A stretch of 22,030 nt of DNA from Hysterium pulicare CBS 123377 (taxonomy: Eukaryota > Ascomycota > Dothideomycetes > Hysteriales > Hysteriaceae), in contig AJFK01000906.1 of NCBI GenBank assembly GCA_000467715.1, forward strand, positions 1-22,030. Reading direction: 5' to 3'. The notes beneath the pieces were generated by a model. The model was not told the origin of the DNA and made no database searches. It was given only the letters and a program-made list of their open reading frames with translations. How positions within the stretch are numbered: position 1 is the stretch's first letter; each line of letters begins with the position of its first letter. A program made the translations under genes and the position numbers. Of this stretch, positions 1 to 19,480 are shown in pieces.

Positions 1-1128
1 CAAGAGTTTGGACTCTGCATGAAGTTAGTTCGATGATGTGGAAAGTGGATAACGATTTTTACTTTCGGTTCGTTCCAACGATCTCAGTCTTTACGGCATT
101 CTATTCCTTACGCTCTTCTGTCGAGGTTATTGTACTTCGAAGCCGTTGTTATTCGTGGTACGGTGAGAGGCTGAAGAGATCTTTCGAACACAGCGTAGCT
201 CTCTAGAAAACTATATAAGATCTCTATTGTTAAATTCAATCGTATCTTCTAACTAGCTCTCTCTATGATCTATCATGTGGTTCACTCTATTAACAATAGA
301 GGCTAGATATTATTACTAATAGTCTCACAAGATGAGCAAATCCAGATAAGAGAGGCACTGTCTGCAAAATGTGAGCCAGCGGTCCAATATGGATTTTGTT
401 GAAGTGCTGATTGAAGAAGGGTAGAAGGCCAGGAGGACAACTCAGGGGTTGTATACGGATTTTAACCGAGGCACAGGCGACTATTGTAACTACTCCAACA
501 CATTTACACTGCTGTAGCCCAATAAAGCAACACATATTCCGGAATGTTTAATGCATTTACGACGTTGGATTCCCAGCTAGCAATCCATGACGGAATATCT
601 CAGTCCTGTTCCGATCTGGCGCATGGGAACACCCAGGCACCTGACTAACCTCATCTAGCCTAGCCAAAAAAAACCCAAAAACATCTGCAAGAAAATTCAT
701 GAAGCAAAAAAATCGCAAAAACATACAACAGCTGGTATTCGCTGCTGGTCACCCACGCAACTACTAATCAGCCGGTCAACTGCTTAAGTACACAAGAGCG
801 GACGGGTTTGACTGTTCTCAGTTGCCTTTGGTCGTATGTGACAGAGATTAATAAAATTTTTAGTTATAACCAGATAATTTTGACAATTTCAACGCTGTGC
901 TCTTATCATCGACCTCAAGTACCGTTAGCTTGCTGCTAACAATCTATCACTTCCGTAACATAGCAGTACTCCATCAGTGCTGAATGCTATCTTAATGCAT
1001 AGAAAATATTGTCGACTCTGAAGCGTCATCCGTTAGGGAATAGATTGAACGTAGAACAAGAATCTATGTAAACAAGCTCTGAAAAACAAACGAACGATGA
1101 TCTAACGAAGTAAGAACGTTCACTACCA
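1..1128. other. gene-free left flank
   Basis: No convincing coding region is seen. The open frames are short and unlike any protein family I recognise. The stretch contains AT-rich patches, A-runs around 666-720 and one perfect inverted repeat (separate entry). It lies downstream of the minus-strand ankyrin gene, so it probably holds that gene's 3' flank. Confidence 0.5.
222..301. repeat. 12-bp perfect inverted repeat with 56-bp loop
   Basis: CTCTATTGTTAA at 222-233 is exactly reverse-complementary to TTAACAATAGAG at 290-301. The enclosed 56 bp are AT-rich and pyrimidine-patterned. This could be the end structure of a small degraded inverted-repeat element or a chance hairpin. No target-site duplication was recognised. 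Confidence 0.45.
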
Positions 1129-1883: not shown

Positions 1884-1955
1884 CTAGCAGAGTGATCACT
1901 GCATAGTATTCGCTTGCTTTTTAGTGCTCGCCCATTTTCAAGCAATATTGTCTAC
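1884..1955 (-). other. candidate 72-nt intron removing an in-frame TAA
   Basis: On the minus strand the segment starts GTAGAC after GCGAG and ends CTGCTAG. It carries CACTAAA as a weak branch-site candidate. Its length (72 nt) is a multiple of three and typical for a filamentous fungus. Removing it deletes the TAA at 1921-1923 and joins the last ankyrin repeat to the His-rich frame. Retention gives the 721-residue form instead. The branch site is not an exact CTRAY match, so RNA evidence would decide. Confidence 0.5.
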
Positions 1956-4086
1956 CTCGCAAAGCATAATCAAGCGGATTCATCCCATGAGTATCACTTG
2001 AACTCTTGCGGACTCCACATATCACCATCAAGTATTTTGAGATGTCAAGACCACCTTTCTCTGCAGCCCAAGAAAGCGGGGTGCGACCGCCGGCATCGTT
2101 CATATTGGGATCAGCGCCAGCGAGGAATAGGGTGGCCAGCACATTCACCTGAGAGCCTTCTACAGCCAGTGAAAGTGAAGTTCGGCCATCCTTGTCCCTG
2201 CTATTGACATTAACACCCCCGTGGTCGAGAAGTAATGCAACCGATTCTACCCTGCTGTTTAGAGCAGCAATAGCAAGCGGTGTTCGGCCATTTGTGTCTT
2301 TGGATTCGGGGTTTGCTTTGCCATCTGCAAGCAGTATGCCCGCAACTTCAATGTGTCCTCCAGAGATGGCTGCCGAGAGCGGAGTTCGGCCGTGCCTATC
2401 CTTCTGGTCGAAAGACTTCATGCCGGTGCTGAGGAGCATGTTAACCACATTTTTATGGCCACATTCAGCAGCCAGCATGAATGCAGTTGAACCAGCTACG
2501 CTGTTCAAATCCAGTTTTCCCTCTTCAAGGAATAACTTCAGGAATTTGACGTGACCTTTTTCCGCGGACCATTTGAAGAATGACCATTTCGTGTCGATAT
2601 TATCCAAGGCCGCCCTTCCCGTCATCAGCAGAAACAAATGTAAGATCTCATTGCCCGGTTTCATCATGAATGATGTCACCGCCCCGTAGTCGGAGAGCAC
2701 GCGACTGTCCGAACTGCAGTTTGTACGAACGAGATCCGTGTGTAGTTCCTCGACGGTCTCGATAAAGCTTTCACACATCTCATCATATTTCTGAGGTGCC
2801 GAGCGCTGATCGAGGAAATGGAAAGGCCGGGAGGGGTTATTTAACTCGGTTCTGAAAAACGTCCGGATGGTATCGGTGTTCCTCTTCGCCAGTGCAACGA
2901 ATAATGGAGTTGCGTACAGCTCCTGCTCGGGTTTGAGATACGAAAAGCGATTCGGATGCGCTGCGATAAGATCGGACATATTCTGTTCGGCCAGGGCATA
3001 GAGCAAGTAGCAGCAATCACAATCGTCGCTGTCGCAGCAACCACAATTTCCATCACCTTCGGCCCCACCATCATTATTATCTTGTTCTTCGCCTCCAATC
3101 TTTCCAGTGGCTCGGTCAGTAAGCTCAATATCATTTCCTTCATGGCTTTGATTATCACTCTGATCATCGCCTTGATCATCGCCTTGATAGGAGGGGTACT
3201 CAGTAGCAATTGTAGCGCCACCTAGCAACCCCACTCCTACCCCAACTCCAGCAGCAAGTTTTGCAGCGTCGTTGTTTGGTTCAGGATTGTGCTGCCACTC
3301 TCGTTCCGATTGTTCGTGGTCTAACTGATCTCCCTGCCGTGGCTCATTCTGTTGATGTGCCCATTGTTCGCGTTCCCATTGCTCTTGCTCTACTTGTGCT
3401 TCTTGCCATTGCTGGTTCTGTTGATGTTGCAATTGCTGGGGATCTGGTTCTTGTTGCTCTGAGTGCTCTGGATTTGAGTGCTCTGGATTTGGCTGCTGTG
3501 AATCTGGTTGCTGTGGATCTGGTTGTTGAGCATCCGGCTTCTTTGGGTCCGGCTGCTTTGCATCCGGCTTCTGAGCATCCGTCTTCTGAACATCCGTCTT
3601 CTGGACATCCGACTTCTTTGCACATGGACGTTTCGGATGTGGTTGTTCTTGCATCGGTATCGCCCCCTCACTCTTCCGGTCATGTTGGACCTGATGCTTG
3701 TGTTTTTCGCCTTCAACATGATGTCGCTCTTTCGACGGCTCTTGCTGGCTCTTCGCGAAGTCTTTTCCTGATTTGTTATGCTGCTTTTGAATCTCAAGCT
3801 GCTGCTGACTCTCTTGAGTCTGTTGCATGTTGCGGGGTTGCTTCGTTTGGCTTCGATCTCCGTTCTGAGGCGAATTTCTCAGTTGATGTATGCGCTGCTG
3901 TGGCAGAGGCGTGGTATCGTGAGATGTAGGATATTGATGACTAAGCATGTGCTGATACGCGGGTGCGTTTTGGTGTCTTGAAGGTTGTGGGTGACCGGGT
4001 GTACTCTGATGGTTCAAAAGTTGTGAACGGTTAGGTTCACTAAAACCTCTTGGAGGTTTTGGCCAATTAACTGTAGTCGGATTCAT
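1921..4086 (-). CDS. Gln/Pro-rich ankyrin-repeat protein
   Basis: The 721-codon frame starts at the ATG at 4086. Residues 1-270 are low-complexity and rich in Gln, Pro and His, including a five-residue repeat of the type QKPDA / QQPDP (about 160-208). Residues 274-296 form a Gly-rich hydrophobic segment (AAGVGVGVGLLGGA), resembling a glycine-zipper or membrane segment. An acidic stretch and a Cys cluster (CGCCDSDDCDCC) follow at about 348-359. From about 500 to 711 there are five to six ankyrin repeats, the clearest being HGRTPLSAAISGGHIEV and NGRTPLAIAALNSRVESV. Ankyrin repeats bind proteins, and no enzyme domain is seen. The real start may be 4560, because an in-frame extension lies upstream, interrupted by two TAA codons. 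The ATG at 4086 has T at -3, a poor context, whereas 4560 has A at -3. The TAA at 1921 may be intronic. Confidence 0.75.
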   Translation of the reverse strand: MNPTTVNWPKPPRGFSEPNRSQLLNHQSTPGHPQPSRHQNAPAYQHMLSHQYPTSHDTTPLPQQRIHQLRNSPQNGDRSQTKQPRNMQQTQESQQQLEIQKQHNKSGKDFAKSQQEPSKERHHVEGEKHKHQVQHDRKSEGAIPMQEQPHPKRPCAKKSDVQKTDVQKTDAQKPDAKQPDPKKPDAQQPDPQQPDSQQPNPEHSNPEHSEQQEPDPQQLQHQQNQQWQEAQVEQEQWEREQWAHQQNEPRQGDQLDHEQSEREWQHNPEPNNDAAKLAAGVGVGVGLLGGATIATEYPSYQGDDQGDDQSDNQSHEGNDIELTDRATGKIGGEEQDNNDGGAEGDGNCGCCDSDDCDCCYLLYALAEQNMSDLIAAHPNRFSYLKPEQELYATPLFVALAKRNTDTIRTFFRTELNNPSRPFHFLDQRSAPQKYDEMCESFIETVEELHTDLVRTNCSSDSRVLSDYGAVTSFMMKPGNEILHLFLLMTGRAALDNIDTKWSFFKWSAEKGHVKFLKLFLEEGKLDLNSVAGSTAFMLAAECGHKNVVNMLLSTGMKSFDQKDRHGRTPLSAAISGGHIEVAGILLADGKANPESKDTNGRTPLAIAALNSRVESVALLLDHGGVNVNSRDKDGRTSLSLAVEGSQVNVLATLFLAGADPNMNDAGGRTPLSWAAEKGGLDISKYLMVICGVRKSSSDTHGMNPLDYALRGRQYCLKMGEH
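3463..3609 (-). repeat. 15-bp tandem repeat coding for a five-residue unit
   Basis: About ten imperfect 15-bp units encode QKTDV, QKTDA, QKPDA, KQPDP, KKPDA, QQPDP, QQPDS, QQPNP and EHSNP. The units nearest the 5' side of the gene are the most alike, and those further on diverge. This is an in-frame minisatellite in the disordered N-terminal part of the ankyrin protein and is likely variable in length between strains. Confidence 0.7.
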
Positions 4087-4110
4087 TAAAGGTTGTGGAT
4101 TAGCTGCAAT

Positions 4111-4560: not shown

Positions 4561-6000
4561 GATTGACGGATGGACGTAGTGAAGGGGAAACGGCGAATGA
4601 CTTTATGGTCAATGGGATGATTACGAAGGAAAAAAAGACGAGTAGAGAGCAATTCCCGAAAGTTATGTGTACCGCAGGGTTAAAAATATGTAACAAAAGA
4701 GAACAAACATTTCGCTCTAGAAAGCCGCTCTGTAAATAGAATGAACATCTCTTACACGGCTGGCCCCAACTGCAGGGCAACGTCCTTCGGCGCCGCCGCT
4801 GAGGCTCAACTGCGGCCACTGCACAAGAGCAATGGCGTGCATGCATATTTCAGAACATCTACCTAATTTTCGAGGCTTAGAGAGCCTAAACATAGGAGAT
4901 GGCGCTGTTGGGCGATGAAGAACTTCCGCCTAAAGGGCGTCTTACCCACCCAACCCTCTCCTCGTACATCTTGTGGCGTTTTCCTTTGGTTAGAAAACAT
5001 CATCGTTGAAGGAAGTGAAACAGGCGTTATGGCGCTGAAGAATGTTGTCAAGATCAGAAGGACTAGAACGTGCGTGCCTTCAAATGCAGAGGTGCTGATT
5101 CAGCATTTAGTCAACTGCCACTCACCTCACGCCCCCATTAATGACGCCCTGCCGCGCCGCATCATTTGATGGATACCCGTGTCGTCTAGCCCTCCGCAAT
5201 GGCTCCAAATCCCGTCCCAAGCGCACGTCGACAGTGATCCGCCAAAGCACATGTCCAAAACGAGGAGAGCACTGATCACGTGCCTAGTTTAACCATGAGG
5301 CTGCTGGTTACTAGCAGCAACCCTGAATGCCTCGCTGCCTAGGTATGTCGGAAAACTGGATCCTCGTTATCTAACGATAAGCTGAACTGCTAGCCGTGGA
5401 TTGCACCATATTCCAGCAGGTGACGGCTACCTTACCCCACTTCCGCCGATGTCGTGATCGCGAAACGACCAGGACTCCACTCAACAGCTTCATCGCAATT
5501 GTAATCATTAGCATGACATGTCAGCATCGACTATCCTCCTTGGTTTAGCTATATATTTTCTTCTCAGATAACCTCTCTACTCCGGGTTTCATCTACTAAC
5601 TTTCACTTAAGTTTAGATCCGTTTCATTATCACGTCTCATATTAAGGTCCTAGTCATCTTCTTAAACTCCGTATAGCAGACTTACTTGCCGCCTATCTTC
5701 GTGAGGAATATTATTTTTATACCTAGGAATGAGGCTATAAGAGCAGTCACGTGATATACTTTCTTATACCTAGTAGTAGAAGAAGAGTTTGGTAAAGCTC
5801 AACTACGCGTAAAGCGGTGATTAATTTAAAGCTCTCGTTTATGGTTGATTTCATTGAATGATGTAACGGTGTTTCTTTGATTTTGCGTAGCAGTACCTCG
5901 GGAAAACAGCAAGCTTATCTACGCCTGTGCATGCGTCACTGCAAGGTCTTCGCTGCTTCTTGCCTCACATACACACCTCTCCTCTGAGATAACGGAGGCC
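4561..6000. other. intergenic region with AT-rich block
   Basis: No coding region could be supported. The segment separates the divergent ankyrin gene (-) and the bisphosphatase gene (+), so it should hold both promoters. About 5500-5880 is AT-rich, with short direct repeats such as TTATACCTAG (near 5717 and 5765). This suggests an old degraded element or simply promoter sequence. Confidence 0.45.
5748..5753. promoter_or_regulatory. CACGTG E-box upstream of the bisphosphatase gene
   Basis: TCACGTGA is a perfect palindrome about 250 bp before the ATG at 6001. A further CACGTG lies at 5277-5282. CACGTG is the core of bHLH factor sites such as Pho4/NUC-1 and Cbf1. Use in this promoter is inferred from position only. 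Confidence 0.3.
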
Positions 6001-9279: not shown

Positions 9280-11034
9280 CTATGCACACATCGCCTTGAA
9301 ATTCGTAACATCGATATAAAGAATATTACTCGACGTTACAGTACAAGTCAAAACCGTCGCCGTACTACTCGCCACAAACCCACTCGGCGCCGAAACGCTC
9401 TGCCACGACCCAATAGCCGCCGTCAAAACTGTCGTAAACGAGAACTGCGACCCAGCAGCAGTACATGTGAGCGCGGCACCGGTGCCACGCGCTACAACCT
9501 TGAATGCTAGGCTCAACGAATACGTGATCCCAGGCGCAGTGACCAGCGTTTGGCTAAGGCTGACGGTGCCGGCCGAGGAGATGGAAAGACGCGCGCAGTA
9601 GGGCGAGTACATGCAGTTAGTGTCGAAGCCTTGCAAGCCGCTGCCGGTGCGGGAAGTGGTCCAGGGGCTGAGGACCGGGCCGCCGGAGCCGGTGGAGTCG
9701 AGACCCGAGAAGCTGGGGTTGAGAATTATGTTTCCGGCGGTGCAGGTTGGGGCTGGAGTGGATGTGGATGAGGACGTTGAGGAGGCGGCTGCGCTAGTAT
9801 CACTTGAGCTGGTTGAAGAGGGAACATCGGAGGACGTCGAGCTAGCGGGGGATGAAGAGATAACAGCGGAGGACGTCGAGCTGGCTACGGTGGAGCCCGC
9901 GGCGGCCGAAGAAGAGATTTCGGACGATGTCGAGCTGACGGTGGAGCTCGCGGCTGCGGAAGAGCTCGTGATTGAAGAGCTCGAGACATCGACGGATGAG
10001 GAGCTCATGATCGACGACGACGAACTGGAGGCTGTTACGCTGCTGGAGATCGACGACGACGACAACTGGAAAGATGAGGCAGATGACGATGGCGTCAGAC
10101 TGGAAGTCGACACTAGTGTTGATGTAGACGATACCACCTCCAAGGAGCTAGAACTTGAAGATGGCGACGAGGGCACTAGCGAGGATGAAGATGATGCTGA
10201 AGTGAGAGTTGATGAGGATGAAGGGGTTGCGATAGACGACGATGAGCTGGTCGATGACGAAATTGAGGTAATGCTGGAAGAAGACGAAACGCTTGACGAG
10301 AACGTCGAAGAAACCTGGGAACTCGAAGGAGACGGTGTTGGCGTGCTGGAGGATTGAGTAAGAGTTTGAGTGCTCGAGAACGACGATGAGATTTGAGAGC
10401 TGGTACTGAAAATGCTGGAGGTCGAGGATGGCTTGGTGCTGGTGGATGAGAAGCTTGAAGATAGCTTGGTGCTAGTGGACGACTGGCTCGAAGTCCGAAG
10501 GGTGCTAGTTTTCGTTGAAGAGGAAGAAGACTTCTTCGACGAAGAAGAAGAGCAAACCGCACCCTTCGCCGCGCTTACTCCATTGCAATTACCAAAGCCA
10601 CTTTGGCAACCCGTCGCACAGTATGCGCTTGTAGATCCGCACCATCCATACTGCGAACAGCAATTGCCCCATTGAGAGCCTAGGCAGGTGTAGCCCTTTG
10701 AACCTCCACAGGTGGCATCAGGGCTGACGGTGCCGCATGCTTGTGATGGTGATGGCGAAGGCGTCGATGAAACCTTGGAGGACGAAGGCGTTGGGGAAGC
10801 TTTGGCAGATGATGATGATTTCGCATTGCTAGTACACCTCCCGAACGCAGATTGGCACCCAGCCTCACAATAATCGGAGCTCGTACCGCAGTATCCGTAT
10901 TGAGAGCAGCATTCGTTGTATTTACAGACCCGAACCGCGGCATTAGCACCGCAGCGGTAGTCGTAATCCGATGCGAGAACTACGTTGGTTGAAAGAAAGA
11001 CGAAGCATAACGAAAGACTTGTTGAGAGCTTCAT
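9280..11034 (-). CDS. secreted CBM18 chitin-binding protein with mucin-like linker
   Basis: The 584-residue single-exon protein starts with a signal peptide (1 to about 21, cleavage near VLA|SDY). Two CBM18 (hevein-like) modules follow: Cys28-Cys67 with CCSQYGYCG and Cys100-Cys150 with CCSQYGWCG, each with the usual set of eight cysteines in part or full. Residues about 163-428 are almost only Ser/Thr/Ala/Pro, a linker expected to be heavily O-glycosylated. Residues 430-584 form a beta-rich domain starting TCTAGNIILNPSF, resembling the carbohydrate-binding jelly-roll modules found at the C-terminus of fungal cell-wall proteins. Expected role: binding of chitin at the hyphal wall or in the environment. 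No catalytic domain and no clear GPI signal are seen. The function of the C-terminal domain is uncertain. Confidence 0.88.
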   Translation of the reverse strand: MKLSTSLSLCFVFLSTNVVLASDYDYRCGANAAVRVCKYNECCSQYGYCGTSSDYCEAGCQSAFGRCTSNAKSSSSAKASPTPSSSKVSSTPSPSPSQACGTVSPDATCGGSKGYTCLGSQWGNCCSQYGWCGSTSAYCATGCQSGFGNCNGVSAAKGAVCSSSSSKKSSSSSTKTSTLRTSSQSSTSTKLSSSFSSTSTKPSSTSSIFSTSSQISSSFSSTQTLTQSSSTPTPSPSSSQVSSTFSSSVSSSSSITSISSSTSSSSSIATPSSSSTLTSASSSSSLVPSSPSSSSSSLEVVSSTSTLVSTSSLTPSSSASSFQLSSSSISSSVTASSSSSSIMSSSSVDVSSSSITSSSAAASSTVSSTSSEISSSAAAGSTVASSTSSAVISSSPASSTSSDVPSSTSSSDTSAAASSTSSSTSTPAPTCTAGNIILNPSFSGLDSTGSGGPVLSPWTTSRTGSGLQGFDTNCMYSPYCARLSISSAGTVSLSQTLVTAPGITYSLSLAFKVVARGTGAALTCTAAGSQFSFTTVLTAAIGSWQSVSAPSGFVASSTATVLTCTVTSSNILYIDVTNFKAMCA

Positions 11035-11975
11035 GATAAACGAATGTACTGGCTTAACACCTAATGATTAGACAATAAGAGAAATGTGAAGAGCGACGGC
11101 GAAGGATAAGTTTGGGAGGCATGAGGGATTTATCCTCCAAACAAGATGTACTAGTCTCTCTGCCACCACCATCGTCGGCCTAAGCAAGTGGCTGACTGAA
11201 TGATTGCCATAAGCGGCTCCTGTGGGCAGACCTAATAGTCCGACGTAGTCGAATTTGGTTGAAGATGGCCTGAAAGGGGTTTAAGCTTTTTAAACTAGTG
11301 CAGGGGCTACAACGCCACAACGCCACTAGTTGTTCAGCCGCATGGCCTGGAAGAAGTTTGTACGAAATCTAGAGAAAGAAAGGCGTCTCGACGCAACCCA
11401 TACATAGAACGCGAAAAAGATTTGAGAAATGCGGAACTTTGAGAGAAGAGCCTCGGGAAGGCGCCGAAGAGACGGGTGTCGAAAGGTGGACGTGGAAAAG
11501 TGAAAGGGAAGATGGAAAAGGGGCAAGCCAACGTAGGGAGATTGATCAACACAAGCCTCGCGCTCGATCCTCTTCTCCCACTAAATGCCAAGCCATCCCG
11601 GGTCTCGGCGTGCCACTTGGCGCTACAACACGCGTCCGCCTCTTAGCGTTTTCTGCTATGTTTGTATAGGTAGGATTCACGGATCGTCAACGCTAGTACT
11701 CGGGCGCATGGGAGTACGTAATGATCTACAGCGTAAATAGCTTCCAGAGTTGTTGTATTGTAAGTGTCAAAATAGAATATGCCATCTAAGTACTTCCTCT
11801 CGCAGCGCTTGCATCGGTGTTCAGCCGGAGGTGGAAAAATGCTGTACAGCAGGAATTCATCAGGAGTAACATCTTAGCTTTAACGCTCGTAGCTACCAAT
11901 TTTTACATACTATGTCCACAAGCCTGCCAACCCTTCGTTGCGAACCCACAAACCTTGGAGTGTTGGAAGTCCGCG

Positions 11976-13058: not shown

Positions 13059-15317
13059 ATGAACCCTCCACCGACCAATACGCCCGTTTTCGACGATTTC
13101 GATCCGTCATACCATCCACAGAATGACTACATCTCACAACAACCTTACCAGCTTGATGGAAACTTCTTGGCGCTTGACATTTCGACTCTAGAAATGCAGC
13201 CCACTAATGAACAGGTTATGACCAGCCACGGCCACCCACCACTCCGTCCGATCATTCCATCTCTTGTATTTCAAATTGGCAATACTGAACCTCCGCCTGC
13301 TATTTCCATGGGTCCACCTACCCAGTCTCGAAAGAGAAAGGCTCCGACTCTGCCTGAAGATGCTGGGGATCCGTACGAGGACGACACTCAGGCTCCACCG
13401 GCAATCCCCATGGGTCCGCCAGCCAAGTCACGGAGAAAGAAAGCTCCAACACTACGTGCCGAGGCTTGGGAGCCATGTAAAGAGAGGATCCAGGAGCTCC
13501 ATATCACGCAGGGCCTAGCGCTTCCAAAGGTCAAGGAGAGGATGGAAATAGAGTTTGGTTTCACTGCTGAGTATGTTTCTCTTTTAAAGCATGAATGAAG
13601 CGTATCCTTATTTTACTCAATGACTTACTTGTTCCAGGGTACGCCAGTACCGAACACGCATAACCCAATAGAAATTAGACAAGAACGTCAAGCCTCAGGA
13701 GATGAAAGCGATTGTTCGGAAAAGACAGCAAAGGAAGGTCGTTGAAACTGATAAGGCGGAGCTTGTTTTCAAGGTCAGAGGTTCCATCGTGGAGCCGCAA
13801 AAGATCGACCGATGGATGAAGAACCACAACGTGGGTGAAAGCCTCATATATGCTCCTAGTCCCGCCGCATGTAAGTGAATGTAATAGATGATGCCTTCAT
13901 TCGAACACTGACATTTCAAGCGACCCCATCTGCCGTATATTGTCGAACAGTCTCCGACCGCGGTTCTTCAGTCCCAAGTCCCGCATATTCAGCACCAAGT
14001 CCGACTTTCTCTCCGATGCCCTTCACGCCTGCTGCCCATAGTCCCCAGGTATCCTCCCCCGCTCTCTCCATTTCGAGCCTAGTCCGGCCTCAAAATAGCT
14101 CTTTCGCGGGGCAAAGTCCGGCTCCTATCTATCGTTCTCTTCCAAACTTGCTACCGGCCACTTTCTCCGCTCTATATATCTCCCAAGACCGATTCTCATC
14201 AGTACAGCCATATGTTCCAGGATCCACGTTACCGCTAGAGATAGGACCTACTGCACCGGGCTCTGTACAAGATCGGTACAGGCAAGAAGACGAAGATCGC
14301 TTGCGGACAGAACTATCCAAAATGGAACTTGTCCACGGGGATAGTGCCTCCACGACTCTAAACGTCTTATTCGAATTGGCAGATGTACTTCTCGACCAAG
14401 GAAGGTACAAATCCGCAGAGGAAGTCATTCGTAGATTAGTAGAAGGTCACCAAAATACGAATGGAAGCAACGATATCAAGACACTTGAGGCCTTGATCTG
14501 TCTTGGACAAGTATTGAGTTACCAAGGATTCTATCGTAAGGCTGAGAAACTGTTCAAACAAGTACTTCGATCGGAAAAGGACATACTAGAAGACGAGCAT
14601 CCTTCCAGACTTACCACCGTGGGTGAATTGGCATTGGCGTATAAAGATCAAGGGCGATGGAAGGAGGCTAAAGAGCTAGAGGTGCAAGTATTAGAGATAA
14701 ATAAGCGGGTGCTTGGGGAGGAGCATCCAGAAACACTAATCAGCAAGAGCAACTTAGCGTTAATATATTCAGAACAAGGGCAATGGAAGGAAGCTGAAGA
14801 GCTAGGGGTACAAGTATTAGAGATAAATAAGCGGGTGCTTGGGGAGGAGCATCCAGAAACACTAATCAGCAAGAGCAACTTAGCGTCAATATATTTAGAT
14901 CAAGGACGATGGAAGGAGGCTGAAGAGCTAGAGGTACAAGTATTAGAGATAAGTAAGCGGGTGCTTGGGGAGGAGCATCCAGAAACACTAATCAGCAAGG
15001 GCAACCTAGCGTTAATATATTCAAGACAAGGGCAATGGAAGGAGGCTGAAGAGCTAGGGGTACAAGTATTAGAGATAAGTAAGCGGGTGCTTGGAGAGGA
15101 GCATCCAGATACGCTGATGAGCATGTACAACCTCGCATATACTATAAAGGACCAAGGCCGCAACGAAGAGGCTCTCTCGCTAAACCAAAAATGCTTTCAA
15201 CTACAGAAACGGGTCCTTGGCTCTCAGCATCCACACACTCAGCTTTCACTTAAAACTCTGACTAAATGGCAGAGGGAGAGCACGGAGACAGGACTCGAAA
15301 GTGATGTGGATTTGTAG
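13059..15317 (+). CDS. Clr5-domain / TPR-repeat protein, interrupted by TAG at a conserved Trp
   Basis: Model: exons 13059-13570, 13638-13870 and 13921-15317, 714 codons in one frame. The start ATG at 13059 has A at -3. The N-terminus is disordered, with two copies of a PPAI.MGPP..SR.(R/K)KAPTL block carrying basic, NLS-like residues. A Clr5 domain follows (about 137-186: WEPCKERIQELH, LPKVKERMEIEFGF, RQYRTRITQ). Then come a Ser/Pro-rich linker and kinesin-light-chain-like TPRs, four of them nearly identical (about residues 491-659). Clr5 is a fungal domain of uncertain, possibly DNA-binding role named after fission yeast silencing factor Clr5. Odd: codon 182 is TAG (13669-13671) where the family has Trp in the ..W..KN motif. 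The downstream frame stays fully open for 530 codons. Readings: young nonsense allele, RNA-edited codon (UAG to UGG), or a downstream protein started at ATG 13702. Confidence 0.72.
13293..13460 (+). repeat. 102-bp imperfect duplication in the Clr5 gene N-terminus
   Basis: Sequence from 13293 recurs from 13395. Both encode PPAI-x-MGPP-x-x-SR-x-x-KAPTL, with a spacer rich in Asp/Glu after the first copy. The second copy runs straight into the Clr5 domain. Divergence is moderate, so the duplication is not recent. Confidence 0.6.
13571..13637 (+). other. intron 1 of the Clr5-TPR gene (67 nt)
   Basis: It starts GTATGT and ends TTCCAG, with AATGAC upstream of the acceptor. Removing it joins GFTAE to VRQYRTR and restores the Clr5 domain. 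Confidence 0.8.
13871..13920 (+). other. intron 2 of the Clr5-TPR gene (50 nt)
   Basis: It starts GTAAGT, contains the branch-site consensus CTGAC and ends TTCAAG. Splicing joins SPAA to STPSAVYC in frame. Confidence 0.82.
14649..15152 (+). repeat. four near-identical 126-bp TPR units
   Basis: Units start at 14649, 14775, 14901 and 15027, exactly 126 bp (42 residues) apart, and differ by only a few bases. Units 1 and 3 share RWKEA..LEV while units 2 and 4 share QWKEAEELGV, so the array probably grew by duplication of a two-unit, 252-bp block. The flanking TPRs are clearly more diverged. Confidence 0.9.
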
Positions 15318-17165
15318 AATAGTGAATATCGAGCAGAAGTTTCTGGGTGTTGTTTACCGAAAGTGTCCTGTAGGTATGCCAAGTTAGAGTGGTATGTATA
15401 TTCTGCAGCAGTAAAGTTACATTGGTCCTTTTGGACGGAGGCAAGCCGGATGGAGGTTTTGGCAGTCAAAGGGTTGTCTTTTCCAAGAGTACTCGAGAAC
15501 GTGGCTAATGCCTCTTCCAATAGACTAGAAGCATCGTCGAATTTTCCTTGGTGTTGTAGACATACAGCTAGATCATTCATGCAGGTCATGGTATCAGGGT
15601 GTCCACGGCCACGGAGTTTTTCCAGCCCCTTAAGACAGTTTCGGTGGTAGTTCTCGGCTTCTTCGTAGTGGCCCAACTTGTCCAAAGCTAAAGCGAGGCT
15701 GACCTGGCTGGAGAGTGCATCAGCCGACTCGTAGTCTGATATTAAATCCCCTAGCTCTAGCTCGTCTTTGTGGACTGCGAATGCATCGGCATATCGTCTG
15801 AGACCTTGCATGATAAGGCCTGTTAGACCTATAGTGTTGATTGTGTCCGGGCTTTTGGGATTGATGAGCTTGAATGATTCAAGCACCTCTGTAGCTAGAA
15901 CCATAGCCTCTTGATATTTTCAAACGGCAAATAAAACTCGGGCTAGGTAGACCTGGCAATTCAGAGTGTCTCTATGCTTATTCGTGAGCAGGCGAGACCG
16001 AATGTTCAAAGCTTCCCGGATCGAGGCCTCAGTTTCTTGTAGCCGTCCAAGCTTAAGCTCGTATTGGGTAACCATCTCTAGGAGCTTGGCCCGGGCCAAT
16101 AAGTCATCGTCATTGATTGCGTCCAGTGACAGAACTCTCTTCGCATGAGGCAGTAGCTCGGCACATGTATGCCAGCTGTTGTACTGATCTTTGGGAAAGA
16201 GCCGAGCAATAAGTTGCAAAGCCATGGACGCAAAGCAGTATCTGTTGCCTTGGGATTCAAGCCAATCATGTACGAATATTTGCACAAGGCGGTGAATAGC
16301 GTAAGATCTTCCTTCCTTAAGAGGCCAGATGAATGCCATAGCTCGAAGCGAGGATATTGCCTCGCTTAGTGCCAATTTATCAGTAAAGCCCTGCGCTATA
16401 AAGGAGACGGGGATGTTGTCTGGGTCCAAGAAACTCATCACCGACAGCACATCGACTGCCAATGGGTTTCTCTGCTTTGTACAGTGGAGGGATATTTTCC
16501 AGGTTGAATAGATAGATTCCCAACCCCTGTCTCTCGTCGAGTCTGTGTTCTCGTATTTCAGTACTCGTCCTGTTGTCATTTGGTCTTGAAAATAGTCCAA
16601 ATAATCGGACATAGAGACGTTGTAGGAGTCCATATAGGCAGCTGTCTGTACTATAGCCAGGGGGAGATATCCGAGAGCCTCTGAAAGTCTAGCAAGCTCA
16701 AGCTCACTCTCTGGCTTAGTATTGGAGTGAAGCATTGTCCTCATACGACTAGTGGCCTCCGACTCGTTGAACTATGAGACGTAGAAAATATCTTTGACTA
16801 GTGAGACATTCTTCGCAAATTGAAATGTCCTAGTCGTGTAGAGGATGGACCCGTGCAAGCATTTTGGCATATAATCGACCAGGGCCCTGGACGTCGCACC
16901 TTCAGATTTTAGAAACATATCGGGGTCATCAACGTTGTCAACTATCATAAGCCATCTGCCAGCACTTTCACTCTCCAACCAGTGCTTGACTCGGAGCATG
17001 AAAAGGGAATCTAACCGTGCACTGCCGAGGATGTCACATTCGACGGCAGTCCGGTGATAGGATTCCTCAACAGCGCTCAAGCTAGCACCATTCACCCAGA
17101 ATACAGAAATCCCGGGATCTCTATCCTTGACTTGATGCGCAAATTGAATGGCAATCTGCGTTTTC

Positions 17166-17218
17166 CTTTAGCGGCCGTCAGTTAAAAGCAGTAGAAGCCA
17201 TGCTACAGGTTAATTTAC
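17166..17218 (-). other. NLR intron inside the P-loop codons (53 nt)
   Basis: It starts GTAAAT, contains CTGAC and ends CTAAAG. Splicing joins GLGGIG to KTQIAIQF, rebuilding Walker A. Confidence 0.82.
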
Positions 17219-17387
17219 CCAATGCCACCCAATCCATAGAGCGATAAAATGAGTTGGTTATCGGTATTTGAGTTCATTCTAGAGTGTAGTCTTTGAAGTA
17301 ATTCTTGTCGGCCAACGAAATTCCGAGTGCGCTGTAGGGGGACTAAGAAGCGCGGGTTGCCGACAAAATTCCGGACGTAGTAGGCGC

Positions 17388-17437
17388 CTGCATGGGCGTG
17401 AGTGGTGCCATCCCGTTAGCGTTCAAGTTGACCTCAC
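17388..17437 (-). other. NLR intron joining kinase and NB-ARC parts (50 nt)
   Basis: It starts GTGAGG, contains the perfect branch site CTAAC and ends ATGCAG. It joins ELAILIAG to AYYVRNFVGNPRF in frame, fusing the kinase half to the NB-ARC half. Confidence 0.75.
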
Positions 17438-17921
17438 CAGCAATGAGAATTGCAAGTTCTCCGTATTTATCTTTTGCATCAAGCTTCATGAAGTCGAGAG
17501 TATCGTCAACAACTGCCGGTGTACGCTTGACTAGGGGTATGTCTTTCCTTGGTAAATTAAGTTGCTCCAGGCAATCACGCCAGGACTGTTGCATTGCTGA
17601 ATGAAAATTGGATGATGCCAATACCCCATATGGGCTGACAAAGCTCTCGTTCCAGTGGCCCCGTTGAATGCATTCATCAAGGATGTCTATGGCAGTTAGC
17701 CGCGTAGAAGAATTAGCGGTGTAACACTTCAAGACGAGGTCTCGAAGCTCGGTCGAATAGCTGATGGGAAGCTCTGGTAGTGCGGAACTGTAAATTAAGC
17801 TGTCTGGGGGAGTTTGGAGGCTCATAAGATTCCATATAGTGGCCCCGAGCGAGAATATATCGCAACCAGTGATCCACTTGAAAGATGGACTGCCGGGATG
17901 AGAGGGACCCACCGGAACTTC

Positions 17922-17975
17922 CTATGTGTATAATCTAGTAACATAGAACGCCGTCCAATCGAAAGTTACGCCTAC
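17922..17975 (-). other. NLR intron at the APE motif (54 nt)
   Basis: It starts GTAGGC and ends ACATAG. Splicing joins GFTAP to EVPVG, creating the kinase APE motif. A clear branch-site consensus was not found (TACTAGA is the nearest). Confidence 0.75.
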
Positions 17976-18151
17976 AGGAGCAGTAAATCCGTATGATCCG
18001 ATATTTCTAGTCGTAGCGATATTCAAAGGAACACTGAAACCAAAGTCCCCAAGCAGGACAGTTGGATAGACGCGAAGTTTGTCGCCGTCGAGAGAAACGT
18101 GTTTTCTCCAACTCGTATCGTGGCTGTGCCAGGGAGGGTCACTCAGCAGGA

Positions 18152-18205
18152 CTGCAAGCAAGCAGATTAGTATCAATAAGAAATTCCCAAGGAAGATAAA
18201 CTAAC
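18152..18205 (-). other. NLR intron after HRDIKPRN (54 nt)
   Basis: It starts GTTAGT, has branch site TACTAAT and ends CTTGCAG. Splicing gives HRDIKPRN-VLLSD, as in kinase catalytic loops. Confidence 0.82.
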
Positions 18206-18442
18206 CATTTCTTGGTTTGATATCGCGATGAATGATAGCTACATGACTGAGTTTCCTAGAAAAGGTTATCCTCTCCGTATTCCAGGTCACTATCGGGTTC
18301 TGTGTAGCGAGATCGAGGAGTTCCGCGTGAACCAATTCTGCCCCATCGGACAACCACTGAAGGCTCCACACGCAACTGCAATCATCGCCCGGGCTGATTT
18401 TAATCTGAGAGAGCGACGAGGACCTGAATCTTGTATAATTGA

Positions 18443-19480
18443 GGAAAAGGAGTTTCGCGGCTAGCTTTAAATATAATCGCCGCTTGCGCGTGGTTGAGCT
18501 TAATCAAACTCTTCTTCGAGTTTCGCGGCTTACCCTCCAGTCAAGCGTACGAAAGAGCTGTAGACCTTGCCAGAAATCTGCAATTCTTTAACCCTTCTGG
18601 TGGACTACTTGAGCTCGCCGGATTTCAGGTCTTGCACTCATCACCACTGGCGAACAATCGCTTCCAATACGTCTTTTCCTTTCCAAAGGACCGTATGAAC
18701 CCGCGCTCACTTCGTGACATACTACTTGATCCCATCAATAAGCCACTGCCACCAATACCACGGAATTATCGCTTCATTCTTCCACGTAAACTAGCAGAGG
18801 CAGTTTATCATGTTCATCAGCAGAACCTTGTCCACAAATGTATACGGCCGGAGTCCATCCTGCTTTTCGAGCCTGCGCCTGGCGACTCGCCTGAACTGAA
18901 ATATCCGAAGGTGATCGGAGTTCCGTTCCTTGTCGACTGGCAACACGTTCGAAAGACGATCGAGGTATCTAGACGACACGCGTATGACGACTGGACCATG
19001 GCGATATATCAGCACCCGGATCGCCAGGCGCAGCCTGGGAGTGTAGCTGAGTCCAAATACAATATTGGCCACGATATCTATAGCCTCGGAGTCTGCCTCC
19101 TTGAAATTGGGCTATGGGATTCTTTCGTCCTCTACAATGGAGGACCCCCAAATTTTTCCCCTCTCATATCTGACGCGAAGAGAAAATGGGAAAGCAAAAA
19201 TGACATAGCCAGCCAAGCCCTGACGGAGTCACAGATTGAGCAGAAGGTATTTATAACACTTGCCGGAGACCGTCTTGCCTATGAGATGGGTGAAGCCTAC
19301 TCGAAGCTGGTGATCAAGTGTTTAACATGTATCGAGAGGGGATTTGGCAACGTGCTCAAGTTCGTGGACAATGAAAGCCGTGACTGGGATGAACAAGGTA
19401 TCATGTTTATTCAGGAGATTCGAAAGGAACTTACGAAGGCGAGCACAATGGGCAGTGGGATATACAACTTGATTTCGTAA
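18443..19480 (+). CDS. 5'-truncated kinase-like protein of the fungal NLR/HeLo-associated type, degenerate motifs
   Basis: The frame is open from 18443 to the TAA ending at 19480 but has no ATG before the kinase-like fold begins, so the 5' part is missing or lies in exons I cannot place. The recognisable part has FQYVFSFP and PRSLRDILL (N-lobe side), LAEAVYHVHQQNLVH, then HKCIRPESILLF in place of HRDxKPxN, VDWQHVR in place of DFG, HDIYSLGVCLLEIG, and a C-terminal CLTCIE..DEQGIMFIQEI element typical of this fungal family. The catalytic Asp and DFG Asp context are lost, so a pseudokinase is likely. Relatives usually follow a HeLo/prion-forming N-terminal domain, which is not seen here. Its 5' end abuts the 5' end of the NLR gene head to head. 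Confidence 0.65.
   Translation, partial: GKGVSRLALNIIAACAWLSLIKLFFEFRGLPSSQAYERAVDLARNLQFFNPSGGLLELAGFQVLHSSPLANNRFQYVFSFPKDRMNPRSLRDILLDPINKPLPPIPRNYRFILPRKLAEAVYHVHQQNLVHKCIRPESILLFEPAPGDSPELKYPKVIGVPFLVDWQHVRKTIEVSRRHAYDDWTMAIYQHPDRQAQPGSVAESKYNIGHDIYSLGVCLLEIGLWDSFVLYNGGPPNFSPLISDAKRKWESKNDIASQALTESQIEQKVFITLAGDRLAYEMGEAYSKLVIKCLTCIERGFGNVLKFVDNESRDWDEQGIMFIQEIRKELTKASTMGSGIYNLIS
18450..18530. repeat. 13-bp direct repeat at the head-to-head junction
   Basis: GAGTTTCGCGGCT occurs at 18450-18462 and again at 18518-18530, 68 bp apart. Both copies lie where the truncated NLR and kinase-like frames meet, so they may mark a rearrangement or insertion/excision scar. Confidence 0.5.

Follow-up and report, generated by a model that had tools for sequence, protein, structure and literature searches.

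Described routes to cell death in fungi include amyloid templating, built-in HeLo domains, and the action of proteases on gasdermins (PMC7885112, PMC9815663, PMC12881547). In the nwd2/het-S and pnt1/hellp pairs the gene of a NOD-like receptor (NLR) adjoins that of a HeLo or HeLo-like effector, and signalling occurs by way of common amyloid motifs (PMC7885112, PMC9815663). Two-gene protease-gasdermin clusters combine a sensor enzyme carrying WD40, ANK, TPR, or NLR modules with a membrane-attack protein (PMC12881547). Kinase domains (PKinase) are also annotated as a domain of fungal NLRs (PMC12258605, PMC4986451), being present in 12 of 4613 NLRs of the Sordariales, nine of the 12 at the C-terminus (PMC12258605), and HELL-domain proteins with a kinase or pseudokinase domain have been noted in a recent review (PMC12881547). 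In mammals, the RIPK3-MLKL system couples a kinase to a pseudokinase whose N-terminus forms a helical bundle (PMC12881547). The locus considered here lies in Hysterium pulicare CBS 123377, on contig AJFK01000906.1, the entire 22,030 bases of which constitute the window (genome assembly 37.2 Mb, 596 contigs). It is rather likely to be what remains, after decay, of a conserved module of two genes, a kinase-NLR and a HeLo-like pseudokinase, which are divergent in the window and would act by the mechanism set out below.

The module resembles each of these systems in part. As in RIPK3-MLKL, a kinase is paired with a pseudokinase, here one with a predicted helical bundle at its N-terminus, and full-length MLKL is matched by the family profile of the pseudokinase; in contrast to the mammalian system, the fungal kinase forms part of an NLR (or, in other pairs, is joined to WD40 or ankyrin repeats) and is encoded beside its partner, and its activation is putative. 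No RHIM-type motif turned up in the Pfam scans. Relative to the protease-gasdermin clusters, a kinase replaces the protease and a HeLo-type pseudokinase the gasdermin. Unlike the amyloid-signalling pairs, the module has a kinase in the N-terminal slot of the NLR and an effector that ends in a pseudokinase. The pseudokinase partner has the same architecture as the HELL-kinase/pseudokinase proteins, but the passages of PMC12881547 consulted do not mention a pairing of these with a sensor-kinase gene, nor do those of PMC12258605 and PMC4986451 mention a pseudokinase partner for PKinase NLRs. No description of a kinase-NLR and pseudokinase pair was found in open-access full texts, a coverage that leaves out subscription journals, preprints, and supplementary tables. 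We regard the pair as belonging to the fungal sensor/executioner gene clusters, in a combination apparently undescribed in the open-access literature.

The initial annotation placed three genes side by side in this region, a Clr5-TPR gene, a kinase-NB-ARC-TPR gene, and a pseudokinase, the first two convergent and the last two divergent. Their placement, domains, and orientations are borne out (Table 1), but the genes are not intact: in-frame stops or truncations damage every one of them, a relic state that had been missed. Removal of four short GT..AG introns from the minus-strand kinase-NLR gene brings HRDIKPRN, DFG, APE, and the P-loop GLGGIGKTQ into one continuous reading; such introns, with consistent phases, connect the frames of the Clr5-TPR gene as well. 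The gene matches Pfam kinase (spliced C-lobe, 4e-12), DUF7779 (8.2e-8), and TPR_12 (2.5e-30; 3.8e-111 in the relative P0121), and its spliced NB-ARC piece scores 20.7 bits, below the Pfam cut-off of 23.5, compared with 34.3 bits for P0121. Both hallmarks of a fungal NLR, a P-loop ATPase nucleotide-binding domain and C-terminal repeats, are thereby present, as GLGGIGKTQ and TPR in the window and as NB-ARC in P0121. The latter (1357 aa) aligns to the window in three parts, residues 184-448, 443-504, and 493-1127, with an abrupt onset at residue 184 (18323, minus strand; 65% identity). The kinase motifs known as the G-loop, beta3 Lys, HRD, DFG, and APE can all be read by eye in P0121, whose kinase is predicted from them to be active; the window kinase retains HRD, DFG, and APE and has lost its N-lobe. 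At the two stop codons, the aligned column is occupied by a residue in every alignment to seven relatives (7/7 at 16772-16774, 19/19 at 15920-15922). An upstream extension of the kinase gene model to 18503 was rejected, as relatives identify 18324-18503 as the antisense of the pseudokinase plus an insert; about the first 60 residues of the query used to search for NLR relatives derive from this extension and are not kinase.

The plus-strand frame annotated as kinase-like belongs to a family of pseudokinases. The window copy matches PF00069 at 0.0043, and its homology to P0001 (515 aa) begins abruptly at residue 151 (18315, plus strand), with 48% identity over residues 151-200 and 80% over 197-515. 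The catalytic Asp is absent in all 59 family members, as expected of a catalytically dead kinase domain. The predicted fold of the family comprises an N-terminal helical bundle and a kinase fold, and HeLo scores above its cut-off in 6 of 11 paralogue frames scanned in the same genome. The window copy is without the N-terminal bundle expected of an MLKL-like executioner. Column 346 of P0001 is occupied by Ser in 44 and by Thr in 15 of the 59 members, in a stretch of low model confidence (mean predicted local distance difference test score, pLDDT, of 58 over 341-350). When the whole model was searched by Foldseek or VIA, no MLKL chain was among the 50 matches listed, and the N-terminal bundle alone gave no Foldseek match below 0.001. 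A tree of 27 pseudokinase fragments provides no supported placement for the window copy, and relatives sought in viral contigs were found in none of them. A start at TTG 18494, given by mechanical frame calling, was rejected because the codon sits within the dispersed-repeat insert.

Table 1. Features of the window, gene pairs of other fungi, and pseudokinase loci elsewhere in the H. pulicare genome
Feature	Position or locus tags	Strand	Remarks
Clr5-TPR gene, broken	13059..15317; exons 13059-13570, 13638-13870, 13921-15317	+	in-frame TAG 13669-13671
TPR array of Clr5-TPR gene	14592..15221	+	126-bp (42-aa) units; Pfam TPR_10/TPR_12
Kinase (C-lobe only)-NB-ARC-DUF7779-TPR gene, broken	15239..18323; exons 18323-18206, 18151-17976, 17921-17438, 17387-17219, 17165-15239	-	stops 16772-16774, 15920-15922
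Inferred deletion scar	18315..18323		intact-kinase and intact-pseudokinase homologies both end; P0121 1-183, P0001 1-150, and shared 5' region missing
HeLo-like pseudokinase gene, broken	18315..19480	+	P0001 151-200 at 18315-18464, 197-515 at 18521-19477; N-terminal helical domain lost
Truncated dispersed-repeat copy within pseudokinase coding sequence	18463..18517	+	40 places listed, window one included, of 209 candidates
13-bp direct repeat flanking insert	18450-18462 and 18518-18530		fits target-site duplication
Fusarium torulosum pair	FTOL_08656/08657		locus tags
Penicillium macrosclerotiorum pair	N7462_003098/003097		locus tags
Penicillium sp. IBT 16267x pair	N7486_009999/009998		locus tags
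Monosporascus sp. MG133 pair	DL767_006670/006672		locus tags
Locus C48			divergent kinase-WD40 frame
Locus C347 (L065)			divergent kinase, 4.4e-37, DFA instead of DFG; pseudokinase broken by in-frame TAA; NPHP3_N (9e-9) frame on other side
Locus C154			divergent kinase-ankyrin frame next to HeLo-pseudokinase (HeLo 2.5e-27)
Locus C161			divergent kinase 5e-29; HeLo 2.4e-20
Locus C277			kinase frame upstream, same strand
Locus C426 (L074)	36742-38697		kinase (2.5e-39) fused to DUF7580 pseudokinase in one open frame, like both pair halves in a single protein
Locus C536			kinase frame ~3 kb off, assignment as neighbour ambiguous

Pairing of the two genes recurs in other fungi; the named relatives heading the lists for the three genes are ascomycetes. 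The best 120 relatives of the NLR and of the pseudokinase were listed, and among the eight best NLR matches seven have at least 45% identity (P0121-P0126, P0128). Four of these seven carry a locus tag one or two removed from that of one of the twelve best pseudokinase matches, and a fifth, P0125, comes from the same source as the pseudokinase match P0013, on contigs of equal size. For P0124 and P0128 no partner pseudokinase is among the matches listed, and many pseudokinase matches are without a listed NLR. Adjacency confined to this genome had been named in the initial annotation as grounds for abandoning the cluster; for the pseudokinase this is not the case, since by locus tags NLR and pseudokinase relatives adjoin in Fusarium, Penicillium, and Monosporascus. 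Of the seven relatives, only P0121 has a gene model that includes a kinase. None of the remaining six aligns to its residues 1-420, so that in these the kinase may be absent, separated from the NLR, or overlooked by the gene model; P0126 and P0128 start just past the kinase part of P0121. The NLR of the Monosporascus pair, P0122, bears at residues 852-1042 a SesA domain (4e-33) and a NACHT_sigma amyloid motif (2.6e-9), an end which may be a true fusion or an adjoining gene merged by the gene model.

The recurrence of the pair suggests, without proving, a kinase-triggered cell-suicide switch in fungi, in which, by analogy with RIPK3-MLKL, a sensor-fused kinase would activate a membrane-attacking pseudokinase. 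The first gene would encode an NLR with an N-terminal kinase as its signalling domain, followed by NB-ARC and TPR repeats, and the second a pseudokinase built like MLKL, with a HeLo-like helical bundle at its N-terminus. Binding of a ligand by the TPR end would cause the NLR to open and oligomerise, upon which the clustered kinases would phosphorylate the pseudokinase, perhaps at the candidate acceptor Ser/Thr of residue 346; phosphorylation would then release the helical bundle, leading to membrane permeabilisation and cell death. In the window, one deletion of the shared 5' region would have disabled both genes, with the stops and an element insertion as additional damage. There is perhaps an even chance that filamentous fungi carry a whole family of such necroptosis-like switches as divergent pairs, in which a kinase fused to one of several interchangeable sensors (NB-ARC-TPR, WD40, or ankyrin repeats) phosphorylates a HeLo-type pseudokinase that attacks membranes. 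If so, the pair would be both a fungal counterpart of RIPK3-MLKL and a kinase equivalent of the protease-gasdermin clusters, would add a phosphorylation branch to fungal cell death and tie fungal immunity directly to the MLKL signalling of animals and plants, and would give the HELL-kinase/pseudokinase proteins of the recent review (PMC12881547) a possible function.

The pair might instead signal by amyloid templating in the manner of HET-S/NWD2 or HELLP/PNT1, the pseudokinase region being just a scaffold and the kinase incidental. Adjoining NLR and HeLo-type effector genes with common amyloid motifs are a described fungal plan (PMC7885112, PMC9815663), and among the NLR relatives P0122 has its SesA and sigma motif and P0125 a sub-threshold Ses_B end. 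This alternative is nonetheless unlikely: the N-terminal slot of P0121 is occupied by a kinase, the amyloid end of P0122 is possibly that of a merged neighbour, and no amyloid-motif family was found among 14 families over the 59 pseudokinase relatives or among 25 of 35 families for P0121, although Pfam may miss short motifs.

A second alternative concerns the role of the pseudokinase. The degenerate kinase had been proposed as a partner or a decoy of the kinase-NLR, and the adjacency of relatives in other fungi partly supports the proposal. As an integrated decoy, it would imitate a kinase targeted by microbial effectors and be guarded by the NLR. Pseudokinases are guarded in plants, and RKS1 is among the structure matches of the family profile, as a weak PDB row only; kinase domains have also been discussed as possible decoys in the C-terminal PKinase NLRs of the Sordariales (PMC12258605). 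Such a role is doubtful, and less likely than that of an effector partner, in view of the helical bundle predicted at the N-terminus of the family and of the HeLo-domain members among its paralogues; in addition, the kinase of P0121 is N-terminal, the position of signalling domains in fungal NLRs.

Kinase/pseudokinase pairs also occur elsewhere in the H. pulicare genome. Of the twelve additional pseudokinase loci, six lie beside or are joined to a kinase: four form divergent pairs, one is in tandem, and one is a fusion, the opposing open frames of the divergent pairs being 255-1050 bp apart. The pair of locus C347 is a second damaged one. With the P0121 kinase as tblastn query, the partner kinases give E values of 0.001-0.002 (C426) and 0.017 (C161), and none below 1 for C48, C347, C154, and C277; this weak similarity implies that the pairs either go back a long way or had several origins and are not recent copies of one another. 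In a test against chance, a listed kinase lies within 4 kb at 4 of 13 places (P 4e-4) and within 2 kb at 2 of 13 (P 0.02), the C426 fusion being counted in both. The 13 places are those left from 20 rows of the pseudokinase search after removal of the window itself and of six rows matching the dispersed repeat alone; the kinases are 114 merged genes from 133 listed matches, a lower bound, with even spacing of kinase genes assumed. Loci C48 and C277, which came to light when flanks were read, stand outside this count. That kinase and pseudokinase lie side by side through chance, or because kinase genes were duplicated locally, without joint function, is very improbable. Tandem duplication could set kinase-fold genes next to each other, the test rests on few places, a fusion, and assumed spacing, and five of the twelve loci (C339, C56, C316, C307, and C465) have no kinase in the flanks read, which for C465 comprise a 3.4-kb locus only; the closest listed kinase is 6 kb away at C56, 10 kb at C465, and 19 kb at C307. 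Against this, adjacency is kept across Penicillium, Fusarium, and Monosporascus, and the partner kinases are too dissimilar for recent copies.

The two truncations of the window pair appear to have a common origin. The alignments of P0001 and P0121 meet within nine bases, so that both truncations would follow from a single deletion in the divergent 5' region. This event apparently took the N-lobe of the kinase and the N-terminal helical domain of the pseudokinase together with the 5' region shared by the two genes. A divergent arrangement permits a single deletion to silence both genes, as seemingly happened here. No match to P0001 residues 1-150 was found elsewhere in the genome at E 0.001 (17 of 17 candidates scored), nor to P0121 residues 1-183 (34 of 41 scored); in either search a very diverged copy could escape. 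The sequence that interrupts the pseudokinase frame is the end of the dispersed repeat, which looks like a SINE-like (short interspersed nuclear element) sequence of very small size; among 19 copies compared, most have about 100-140 bp in common and four just 57-68 bp. A second copy lies in the window at 5779-5888 (minus strand). That the damage is an assembly or sequencing artefact, the pair being intact in the strain, is the least probable alternative: the window is one short whole contig among 596 and stops can be base errors, but the junction unites two truncated genes at a single point, the insert bears a target-site duplication, and the missing parts were not found elsewhere in the assembly among the candidates scored.

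The Clr5-TPR gene is probably a neighbour without evident relation to the kinase-NLR/pseudokinase module. As annotated, it combines a TPR array, the copies of which have 85%, 86%, and 66% identity to a 252-nt reference copy, with a Clr5 match (Pfam 3.4e-8, profile positions 2-39 of 54). Its in-frame stop falls inside the Clr5 domain, at a column that is Trp in 94 of 98 relatives by pairwise alignment (100 compared); this alignment was used in place of a looser motif search, which caught the Trp in just 9 of 90. A third place in the module was rejected for this gene, in the absence of linkage to the pair elsewhere, and its proposed role as partner or decoy of the kinase-NLR finds no support: none of 115 listed homologues is named as F. 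torulosum, P. macrosclerotiorum, Penicillium sp. IBT 16267x, or Monosporascus sp. MG133, the four species holding the pair, a weak negative because 7994 candidates alone were scored and some matches are unnamed. Outside the cluster, the window holds a 5S ribosomal RNA gene at 720-839 (minus strand; Rfam 3e-13), a Gln/Pro-rich protein with ankyrin repeats toward its C-terminal part at 1921-4110 (minus strand), and, at 9280-11067 (minus strand), a possible cell-wall protein that is rich in Ser/Thr and has two stretches of Chitin_bind_1 (PF00187).

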